Part shown: one piece after another, positions 13,552 to 16,703 of the stretch | How positions within the stretch are numbered: position 1 is the first letter of the stretch | How the letters are laid out: every line of letters begins with the position of its first letter | Source of the DNA: Paraphysoderma sedebokerense | Lineage: Eukaryota > Blastocladiomycota > Physodermatomycetes > Physodermatales > Physodermataceae | Assembly (NCBI GenBank): GCA_025602915.1 | Contig: JAHLJZ010000024.1 | Coordinates: 1 to 64,000 of the forward strand | DNA: 64,000 bases | Direction: 5' to 3' | Notes under the pieces: model-generated | Told to the model about the DNA's origin: nothing | The model's input: the letters and a program-made list of their open reading frames with translations, nothing else | Databases searched by the model: none | Made by a program: the position numbers and the translations under genes

Positions 13552-16500
13552 ATGGCTTCTTCTTCCTCCGCTGCCGTACCAGGCGTCTCAGAGAATGTCT
13601 TAAAGGACAAGCGAACGACGATTGAAGAACTGTACACGAAATATGAAATTGGAGAAACACTCGGAACGTTTGTATCTGGGCCAATTCGGATTTAATATTC
13701 CTTTTTCACTTTGACATGGCAAATTCGACGAACCTTGTATATCTGTTCTTCGTTTATTTTGATATGCCCGTTTAATTTTAATGAAGTTTCTGACAATTCT
13801 TTTTGTGGTCTTCACTCCAACAGCGGCGCATTCTCCGAAGTTAAAACGGCGACATGCCGGTCAACTGGCGAAAGATTTGCTGTTAAAGTTATTGATAAAG
13901 CCAAGTGCAAAGGCAAAGAAAACATGATTCAGTCTGAAGTTGAAATCCTCAAGAAAGTGAAACACAAGAATATTATTCGATTATTCGACATCTATGAAAG
14001 TCCAGCAAAAATCTTTTTGATCATGGAGCTGTAAGTGCTGCATACCAATAAGCTGAGGATCTATCTGATTTATTGGGGCTGTAATTGACGTTGAGATCCA
14101 CTCTTGTATTTTACAATCCAGGGTCACTGGTGGAGAATTATTCGATCGTATCGTGGAACGTGGTCATTACACTGAAGCCGATGCTGCTAAAATAATTTAT
14201 GATATCTTATTGGGTGTCGATTATCTCCACGAAATGGGAATTTGTCATCGTGATTTAAAGGTGTGTTTTGGTCGTTTTACAGATGACTATTATCAGTTTG
14301 TGTACTAATCAATGCCTCGTGGGTCGTCTAGCCCGAAAATCTTCTGTTTCAAACGGAAAAAGAAGACGCAGCGATTATGATTAGTGATTTTGGACTGTCA
14401 AAGATTTTTCAAGAAATAGATATAATGAAAACTGCTTGTGGAACTCCTGGCTATGTTGGTGAGTAGTTTGGCTTCTCCTCTGTCAAGGAGTCTTGTATTC
14501 ACATGTTCTCTCATTTCTCGCCTGTAGCACCCGAAGTGTTGAGACGTCAAGGCTACGGTAAAAACGTCGACATATGGTCTATTGGTGTGATTACGTACAT
14601 ATTACTCTGCGGTTACCCACCATTCTATGAAGAAAACAACGTCGAACTCTTCAATCAAATCATGAAAGGTCATTATGAATTTGACTCACCTTATTGGGAC
14701 AATATTTCGGTTGAAGCCAAAAACTTCGTGAGTCGTATGCTAGTCGTTGATGCGTCAGTTCGAATTACTACCAAGGAAGCATTGCTTCATCCTTTCTTGA
14801 CTGAAAATTGCGAAGCTGCCGATCGAAGAGCCAAGGCTATTCGTGCTGCCAAACATGGGTTTTCTTCGCCGTATTCCCTGAAAAAGAAAACTGACTCTGA
14901 AATGAGTAACTTGGCTCCAACTGTCAAGATCAACATGCAACAGAAAATTCTACCCCAGAAGAGAGCAAACGCGGTATGTATAGCTTACTTGAAATCTTGC
15001 TGATACAGGACTAGTATCTGACATTACTGGTGTCCGCCAACAGTCAGTTGAATACGGATCGAAAAAGGAAGCAAAGTCTCACACTGGTTCCGTCAAATCA
15101 AAAGAAACCCCCGTTAACAAAGTTACTGAAGACATGGCCCACGTTACTTTATCGCATCGTTCTGCCGCGCAGTCTTCGCCTATTCTAGCTACTCCTACTT
15201 CCGACGACAACATACACGTCGCTGCTAACATTGGATTTAATCCCCTTCGTCCTAAAGAAGACCAGCGCGAAATTGAAGATTCTGGTATAGTTGCTTCAAG
15301 AGAATGCGTAAAAGGAAAGCAGCCAGACAACGGTCACCACAATAATTCAAACAGTCCGCGCAATGTTCCCCAAATTAAACCTGCCCCACGACCGCAATCT
15401 CCTAATGAACATAAAGCAAGCCGCCCAGTGTCATCTGACCATCCGCAAGTCAAAGATCCATCATTTGTTAATGCGAAAACTTACCTCTATGCACCTTTTC
15501 CTGAAACTAATAAGACAAATGTACCAACACGATACGTGAATGTTCTCAGTTACAACATCTTTATGCGTCCTCCTGGTGTCAGAAACAACTTCTCCGATCA
15601 TAAGAACGCTAGATTATCATACTTCTGTCAACATGTCTTACCTAACTATGATATTGTAGCTTTACAGGAAATGTTTGCCTACGGTTCATCCAGGCAAAAC
15701 AAGTTGATCTCTTACGCAAAACAAACAGGGCTTGACTATAACGTGACCAGTCCGTCCAAAGGTCTGCTTAATGGCACCATTGATGGTGGATTGATAATTC
15801 TGAGTCGCTTCCCTATATTAAAGCATAGTAAGATTACCTTCAAGAAAGGAGTCTACAGCGATAGGTAAGACATTCCCCTCCATCTCACGAATGAACATGT
15901 CGTTTAACAGGCTAATTGCTTAATTCATTTTCAACCTTTCCAGATTTGCGGCTAAGGGTGCACTCTACGCTCGCGTTGCAATTGATTCTACACATCACGT
16001 TCATGTTTTCACTACCCACTTACAAGCATCATATGATCATAACAGCAAAATTACTGACCCTGACGTAGTCGCACGTCTAAATCAAATCATTGCCTTCCGG
16101 CATTTTATCTTGCAGTGCACTGCCGATAAAGCTCCACATGAACCTATTCTCATTATGGGTGATCTAAACGTGAATGCTCGCACAAATAACTCCAACGGTA
16201 ATGACAGCGAAGAATACAAGTATATGATGCACATTTTACGCGGAGAAAATGTTTATATTCCGGGATTGGGTTGGTCATATGAGCTCTTGCAAAATTATGG
16301 TCTCGCTCCACATGAACAATTCTACCTTCCAGTACGAGACGTTCTAAAAGAGAAATACGCAGTTCACCCAGTGACCTACGGGGATGTGACTGATCACATT
16401 ACTAAAATGCCAGTGGAAACTACGTTAACAGTTAAAGAAGACTACGGGCTATGCGCTAGTTTGGATTACATGTTATGGGTGGATTCTGCTGTCTCCAGAC

Positions 16501-16703
16501 CGGATGGAAAGGGTGCGATTGGTTTGGATTTGCAAAACGTGAAAGTCGAAAGTTTCGCGGTTGACGGAAGTCAAGATTACACGCACCTTTCTGGTAAGTT
16601 TTGGTTCGAAAACGTCGTTCTTTCTCAATTTTTGCTGACTTGCTTCTGTCATTCATGGATTTTAGATCACTATGGTGTTCGATGTATCCTTTCTGTTACT
16701 TAG
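13552..16703 (+). CDS. CaM-kinase / neutral sphingomyelinase fusion protein
   Basis: Eight exons (13552-13667, 13824-14030, 14122-14260, 14332-14458, 14528-14973, 15044-15864, 15944-16593, 16666-16703) sum to 2,544 nt, 847 residues. Residues 1-345 are a CaMKI-like kinase with a Gly-rich loop (GTGAFSEV), FAVKVID, HRDLKPEN, DFGLSK, activation loop [12 protein letters not shown] and a basic segment after the domain that could bind calmodulin. Residues about 346-510 form a Ser/Pro-rich linker. From about 510 there is an endonuclease/exonuclease/phosphatase fold of the neutral sphingomyelinase type: [13 protein letters not shown], the Glu in [25 protein letters not shown] and the C-terminal SDH catalytic His. 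Such enzymes cleave sphingomyelin-type lipids to ceramide and a phospho-headgroup. The 70-nt joining intron 14974-15043 has GTATGT, CTGAC and CAG and keeps phase 0. Retaining it stops translation after ten codons, giving a kinase-only protein. Two separate genes are the alternative, but there is little promoter space. Confidence 0.85.

Follow-up and report, generated by a model that had tools for sequence, protein, structure and literature searches.

A widespread kinase–sphingomyelinase fusion in zoosporic fungi with a repeatedly altered lipase active site

Here, we describe a gene of the blastocladiomycete Paraphysoderma sedebokerense that encodes, within one protein, a CaMK1-type Ser/Thr kinase and a sphingomyelinase (SMase)-type domain. 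It lies in the first 64,000 nucleotides of contig JAHLJZ010000024.1 (assembly GCA_025602915.1), the whole of which we analysed and refer to as the window, and there it occupies positions 13552-16703 of the forward strand, on which all of its parts given below are read. In our exon model, the gene has eight exons separated by GT-AG introns; the joined coding sequence of 2,544 nt, stop codon included, is an exact multiple of three and encodes 847 amino acids, with introns making up 608 nt of the 3,152-nt genomic span. Exon 1 (13552-13667) carries the start ATG and codons 1 to 38.7, exon 2 (13824-14030) most of the Gly loop and Lys60, exon 3 (14122-14260) the HRDLK motif, exon 4 (14332-14458) the DFG motif and Thr188 of the activation loop (T-loop), and exon 5 (14528-14973) the kinase C-lobe and the first part of a linker, ending at codon 345. 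The two halves meet across a joining intron (14974-15043) that is 70 nt long, has the form GTATGT...CAG and falls between codons 345 and 346. It is followed by exon 6 (15044-15864), which holds the remaining linker and the N-terminal part of the SMase domain with N516 and E554, then by exon 7 (15944-16593) with H644, D692, N694 and D793, and finally by exon 8 (16666-16703) with D836, H837 and the TAG stop; the six other introns measure 156, 91, 71, 69, 79 and 72 nt. A preliminary description of this locus had proposed such a fusion, with complete catalytic residues in both halves, a canonical and phase-preserving joining intron, a coding length divisible by three and about 90 nt of in-frame coding between that intron and an ATG at 15134. 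All of this holds up, and a chance resemblance is excluded: the Pkinase and Exo_endo_phos matches fall in one model, a public protein is identical to it throughout, the same architecture is found in other fungi, the kinase residues and all eight SMase positions are present, and the in-frame run ahead of the ATG (15044-15133) is exactly 90 nt.

That this is one gene, encoding one protein with kinase and SMase halves, is seen in the public protein P0001, which is identical to the window model over all 847 residues and reads across the joining intron. Its source is a contig of 2,820 nt and, because this is shorter than the 3,152-nt locus with its introns, we take the contig to be a spliced transcript; judged by these lengths, it is evidently an mRNA that crosses the kinase-SMase junction. 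A gene-model artefact, in which two adjacent genes have been merged, could appeal to the stop codon that the kinase frame meets at 15003 when 14974-15043 is not spliced, and to the database models of some relatives, which look over-joined. It is nevertheless very hard to reconcile with an identical protein whose source contig leaves no room for the introns, with the recurrence of the fusion across many species and sources, other short contigs included, and with the co-occurrence in relatives of the motifs that flank the junction; on the transcript-length argument and the same fusion in relatives, we reject it. As a separate observation, retention of the joining intron would end the frame at 15003 and give a kinase-only protein. 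P0071, a kinase-only protein (71% identical) encoded on a contig of 2,061 nt, stops at the matching place (...NRNNA vs ...KRANA), and such an end may reflect either regulated intron retention or simple truncation.

The kinase domain (residues 31-287; 13642-14799, introns included) matches Pkinase with an E value of 8.6e-80 and human CaMK1D with one of 6.9e-104, and its best solved relatives are CaMK1D, CaMK1 and CaMK1G, ahead of CaMK4, DCLK1 and CaMK2. Its catalytic set comprises the Gly loop, K60, E77, HRD150-152 (in HRDLK), DFG173-175, T188 and APE, with the CaMKK-type activation-loop Thr kept. Across the 27 fused proteins tabulated for these residues (P0005, P0009, P0041 and P0045-P0047 were left out), they are unchanged wherever the model covers them, with two exceptions, namely one residue of the Gly loop in Rhizophlyctis and, in a seemingly mis-modelled stretch of the Polychytrium protein, the D of DxWS. 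No second, unfused CaMK1 was found in the genome by an exon-by-exon search, which cannot exclude one; the next matches share 30-50% identity with parts of the kinase, and the best of them, C8, reads by eye like an SNF1/AMPK-type kinase.

Beyond the kinase domain, 37 residues past the end of the Pkinase match, begins a candidate autoinhibitory segment (residues 324-336; 14908-14946), recognised by motif comparison and forming a low-confidence helix (327-334) in the structure model. Its pattern, NLAPxxxxNL, is reminiscent of the first half of the autoinhibitory segment in animal CaMK1, and by eye the window copy resembles the animal SVSEQIKKNF pattern. This NLAP segment is present in 12 of the 28 fused proteins that have a kinase, the window protein among them, a count made with an improved pattern; an earlier pattern had matched 11 of 27, missing the window segment and including an apparently false match in P0007. 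In these 12 proteins, no Trp lies within 30 residues of the segment, and the window protein has none anywhere in residues 288-505. The animal pattern matched four of ten animal CaMK1 proteins, each of them with a Trp, and the earlier pattern matched 21 of 47 unfused kinases, one with a Trp (P0109, in its C-terminal tail). In CaMK1, such a downstream Trp anchors calmodulin. The window protein is like CaMK1D, CaMK1 and CaMK1G in its kinase domain and T-loop Thr and, by eye, in its candidate autoinhibitory segment, but differs from them in having no Trp in or near that segment and in carrying a long disordered linker and a C-terminal SMase domain. On these motifs, direct calmodulin control of the window kinase is uncertain, and a different calmodulin site is possible; of the term 'CaM-type' used in the preliminary description, the kinship to CaMK1 stands and the implied Ca2+/calmodulin control is not supported. 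The NLAP motif also forms the very start of P0045, a protein from a 1,976-nt contig.

The two halves are connected by a linker predicted to be disordered (residues ~310-506; 14866-15526, joining intron included), for which the predicted local distance difference test (pLDDT) score is below 50 over nearly all of residues 310-495. Within it lies the motif DSGIVAS (residues 424-430; 15278-15298), the general form of which is [E/D]DSG[I/L/C]V[A/S/T]S. Motifs of this form are shared by many relatives across zoosporic fungi, fused and unfused alike, and DSGxVxS may resemble a phosphodegron.

The SMase-type domain (residues 507-846; 15527-16697, introns included) is identified by profile, structure-model and fold matches. 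Exo_endo_phos is matched with an E value of 2.2e-10, and the domain has the DNase-I-like SMase fold, with a fold match that reaches chain residue 305. All eight catalytic positions are kept, the window residues N516, E554, H644, D692, N694, D793, D836 and H837 corresponding in order to Bacillus cereus SMase N16, E53, H151, D195, N197, D233, D295 and H296, where the first five equivalences come from alignment, and those of D793 with D233 and of D836/H837 with D295/H296 from motif and fold. We take D195, D233 and D295 to be catalytic residues of the B. cereus enzyme. Its metal site includes N16, E53, N197 and H296 according to PMC9710629, and titles cited in that paper assign acid-base catalysis to H151 and H296 and Mg2+ binding to E53. 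Compared with B. cereus SMase C (SmcL, beta-hemolysin), the window domain is part of a kinase protein that is presumably intracellular, and its edge metal site is conserved in part. Its closest stand-alone relatives are fungal neutral SMases of Mucorales and Kickxellomycotina, which have no kinase and which presumably correspond to the 'SMPD3-like' group of PMC13161914, an equation of our own. Given its full set of residues, the window SMase domain is probably still catalytic.

The fusion is a widespread architecture, not a single oddity. With the SMase half as query, 36 proteins were listed; the kinase and the Exo_endo_phos Pfam domain occur together in 12 of these, P0001 among them. A search with the SMase of a chytrid relative listed 43, with both domains in 20 of them and a kinase Pfam domain plus an SMase match in P0056. 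The carriers include Sorochytrium, Catenaria, Blastocladiella emersonii, Allomyces, Quaeritorhiza, Polychytrium, Borealophlyctis, Rhizophlyctis, Nowakowskiella, Blyttiomyces, Podochytrium, Siphonaria, Chytriomyces, Dinochytrium, Entophlyctis and a metagenome-assembled genome of Lobulomycetales, and further fused proteins come from contigs of ~2.1-2.8 kb in metagenome or read-archive assemblies. In the NCBI taxonomy, Sorochytrium and Catenaria belong to Blastocladiomycota (Blastocladiales), and Rhizophlyctis and Quaeritorhiza to Chytridiomycota; the remaining carriers we assign to Blastocladiomycota or Chytridiomycota. The preliminary description would have given up the fusion had related species always possessed two separate genes, and many relatives carry it. 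Stand-alone SMase relatives are found in Mucorales, Kickxellomycotina (Dimargaris) and protists. Three of the database models, P0002 (Sorochytrium; PF00172 zinc cluster), P0049 and P0057 (40S ribosomal S1B), run into apparent neighbouring genes and are probable annotation joins.

Searching with the kinase half scored 7,988 candidates, of which 3,176 reached an E value of 1e-80 or better. The best 120 of these 3,176 include unfused chytrid kinases and one from an aphelid (Amoeboaphelidium), and also P0073, P0076 and P0080, in which a far-decayed C-terminal SMase domain gives no Exo_endo_phos Pfam match. This decayed domain is detected by a profile built from relatives, with best-domain E values of 4.7e-21, 1.8e-17 and 1.7e-17, respectively, computed with a manually fixed database size of one million; all 50 matches listed in a fold search with the P0073 model are kinases, and the SMase relationship rests on the profile match. 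The unfused CaMK1-like kinases of chytrids (Synchytrium, Spizellomyces and Batrachochytrium) are 56-67% identical to the window kinase, and several share its NLAP and DSG linker motifs, but they have no SMase domain.

A maximum-likelihood tree of 52 SMase domains, calculated with the eight catalytic columns removed, splits 33 fused-clade rows from 19 stand-alone ones with support of 100/98, and places a single change between the fused and stand-alone states. A kinase sequence is present in the same protein for 28 of the 33. The window SMase groups with those of Sorochytrium, Catenaria, Blastocladiella and Allomyces (100/98), and the kinase tree likewise sets the window protein in Blastocladiomycota (96/86). 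Unfused kinases are scattered among fused ones in the kinase tree, with 12 changes of state, a soft count in that several unfused rows are partial and many inner branches weakly supported. The two trees suggest one ancient fusion, after which the SMase domain was lost in some lineages, over and above point losses within it.

These point losses fall on the lipase active site. Six SMase positions were scored, N16, E53, H151, D195, N197 and D233 in B. cereus numbering, and at least one of them is replaced in 20 of the 33 fused-clade rows (12 keep all and one is unreadable), compared with none of the 19 stand-alone SMases. On the SMase tree, the kept or lost state changes at least seven times, with six changes for D195 alone. 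H151 has become N in Sorochytrium, Catenaria, Blastocladiella and Allomyces, the last three of which also have S for N16; D195 gives way in various chytrids to V, T, S, C, G or N, and N197 gives way in P0038 to A; and the SMase residues of P0073, P0076 and P0080 have decayed wholesale. As a control, we took the 33 columns that are invariant in the stand-alone rows, 13 of which never vary in the 30 fused-clade rows that are left when the three decayed proteins are excluded. D195 varies in 11 of 29 fused-clade rows, and two other columns vary as much or more, Y649 in 24 of 30 and F556 in 11 of 30, where ten have changed to Y. The SMase domain as a whole is thus not decaying at random in those 30 rows. 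The tree used for these counts excluded the long-branch stand-alone SMases P0032, P0035, P0068 and P0069, which in a quick tree keep all of their readable scored residues. That quick tree comprised 53 of the 70 proteins of both SMase searches together with P0073, P0076 and P0080; the 17 proteins that it omitted (near-duplicate Mucorales, P0030, P0031, P0055, P0067, the remote P0033, P0034 and P0036, and P0070) keep all readable residues at the scored positions.

Because the kinase is kept and the lipase site repeatedly replaced in a domain that is itself retained, the function shared by these proteins would be kinase signalling at a membrane. We lean, with some caution, towards a kinase equipped with a lipid-docking module of SMase fold, one that is probably still catalytic in P. 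sedebokerense and has repeatedly become a pseudoenzyme elsewhere. In such a protein, presumably intracellular, a flexible linker of ~190 residues would tether the CaMK1-type kinase to the SMase-C-type domain, the conserved job of which would be to dock the kinase on a sphingolipid-containing membrane, where its targets would be phosphorylated. In lineages with an intact site, the window's included, the domain could also, in the same location, hydrolyse a lipid of sphingomyelin type to ceramide. T-loop phosphorylation at Thr188, presumably of the CaMKK-like kind usual in the family, would probably switch the kinase on, and the NLAP segment would probably restrain it. A hint that the fusion has to do with membrane attachment comes from basic-aromatic clusters, which are present at the C-terminus of 27 of 46 unfused zoosporic kinases and of none of 24 fused ones, and were found in none of the 21 fused-protein linkers examined; fusion and tail may both serve that purpose. 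The tails of unfused chytrid CaMK1-like kinases are of at least three types (WTRLF/GRWF, SWFR and KWGWK). More tentative, and less likely than not, is a historical account in which there was a single early fusion, selection repeatedly turned the hydrolase into a catalytically dead receptor for sphingolipids, able to position or regulate the kinase, and lineages such as that of the window keep the bifunctional ancestral state. If true, this account would offer, inside one signalling protein, a natural series running from enzyme to pseudoenzyme sensor, and would make a protein the direct link between sphingolipid state and phosphorylation.

A number of observations weigh against this docking model. 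Both membrane docking and SMase activity are predicted properties, and the comparison of fused with stand-alone SMases amounts to one phylogenetic contrast, since the tree has a single change of fusion state. For five of the 33 'fused' rows (P0005, P0041, P0045, P0046 and P0047), the available protein has no kinase match. P0005, P0041 and P0045 are shorter proteins and may be fragments: the first opens, as judged by sight, within the kinase C-lobe, the second has the DSG motif and the third the NLAP motif. P0046 and P0047, from Piromyces (Neocallimastigomycota), have an Asn-rich N-terminus and intact scored SMase residues. The proposed restraining segment is absent from 16 of the 28 fused proteins. 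One of the 20 losses is the conservative replacement of E53 by D (P0040), and a single replacement is no proof of a dead enzyme, because the Streptomyces griseocarneus SMase has Gly at one central metal-site residue, as reported in PMC9710629. The window domain scores 75.1 bits against TIGR03395, the NCBIfam equivalog for bacterial SMase C, where the cut-off is 248.2, and of the B. cereus edge metal site (F55, N57, E99 and D100) it keeps F and D and has, by alignment, Y for N and I for E. Of 65 other CaMK1 proteins, 24 likewise have basic-aromatic clusters close to their ends, and the tail argument is weak because the calmodulin helix of other CaMK1 proteins has the same basic-aromatic make-up.

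Other explanations place more weight on the two catalytic activities. Ca2+/calmodulin could activate the kinase, which would then switch on the attached SMase in cis, by phosphorylation or otherwise, to produce ceramide, as is in keeping with CaMK1 as nearest kinase, with complete active sites in both halves in this species and with the autoinhibitory-like segment past the kinase. We think this improbable: the 12 of 28 fused proteins that bear the segment have no Trp after it, whereas the four matched animal CaMK1 proteins all do, and persistence of the fusion would be unexplained in the 20 of 33 rows with a replaced SMase residue. The direct coupling of a Ca2+ signal to ceramide, as put forward in the preliminary description, is for the same replacements unlikely as a general role and possible in this species. 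A similarly low chance attaches to two independent enzymes that act on nearby substrates at one membrane, for which the fusion would merely fix co-localisation and dose; the long linker, predicted to be disordered, and the complete active sites of the window protein would suit this arrangement, but it does not account for proteins that persist while the residues of one activity are repeatedly replaced. Less probable still is that the SMase fold of the window protein is already a mere receptor for a lipid or other ligand, its intact residues being a relic or serving metal and head-group binding only. Many relatives have independently lost active-site residues, and the activity could come from a separate, stand-alone SMase-like gene of this genome, yet all eight catalytic positions are kept in the window protein.

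Both domains are well known, and what appears to be new is their union in one protein, of which we found no published description in a limited literature search; the words 'fusion' and 'CaMK' are absent from the main text of PMC13161914, and sphingomyelin in fungi is described in that paper as largely unexplored. In the databases, single members bear automatic annotations as CaMK1 kinase or sphingomyelin phosphodiesterase. If real in cells, the fusion would let a single molecule connect kinase signalling with sphingolipid membranes in zoosporic fungi, and the repeated, independent replacement of residues at the lipid site beside an untouched kinase is a testable case of the passage from enzyme to sensor domain, with intact members, the window protein among them, for comparison.

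As to a possible substrate, three places in the genome exceed the cut-off of PF14360 (sphingomyelin-synthase family), one of which matches SMS-related protein 1 in the PDB with an E value of 1.2e-4; PF14378 had no match in an exon-wise search, a weak absence. The second, stand-alone SMase-like gene, which includes a 37% identical stretch and has intact THLQ and GDLNIN motifs, lies on contig C21 (250779-251658). Within the window, the downstream neighbour of the fusion gene is of the DNA photolyase/cryptochrome type (17135-18703; FAD_binding_7), and it is followed at greater distance by a prolyl-oligopeptidase-family gene (24100-27239; Peptidase_S9_N), a P-type ATPase gene that by eye resembles the P4 flippases (34747-39093; Cation_ATPase), and an AIR-synthase-related fragment of purine synthesis (42053-42748; AIRS and AIRS_C).

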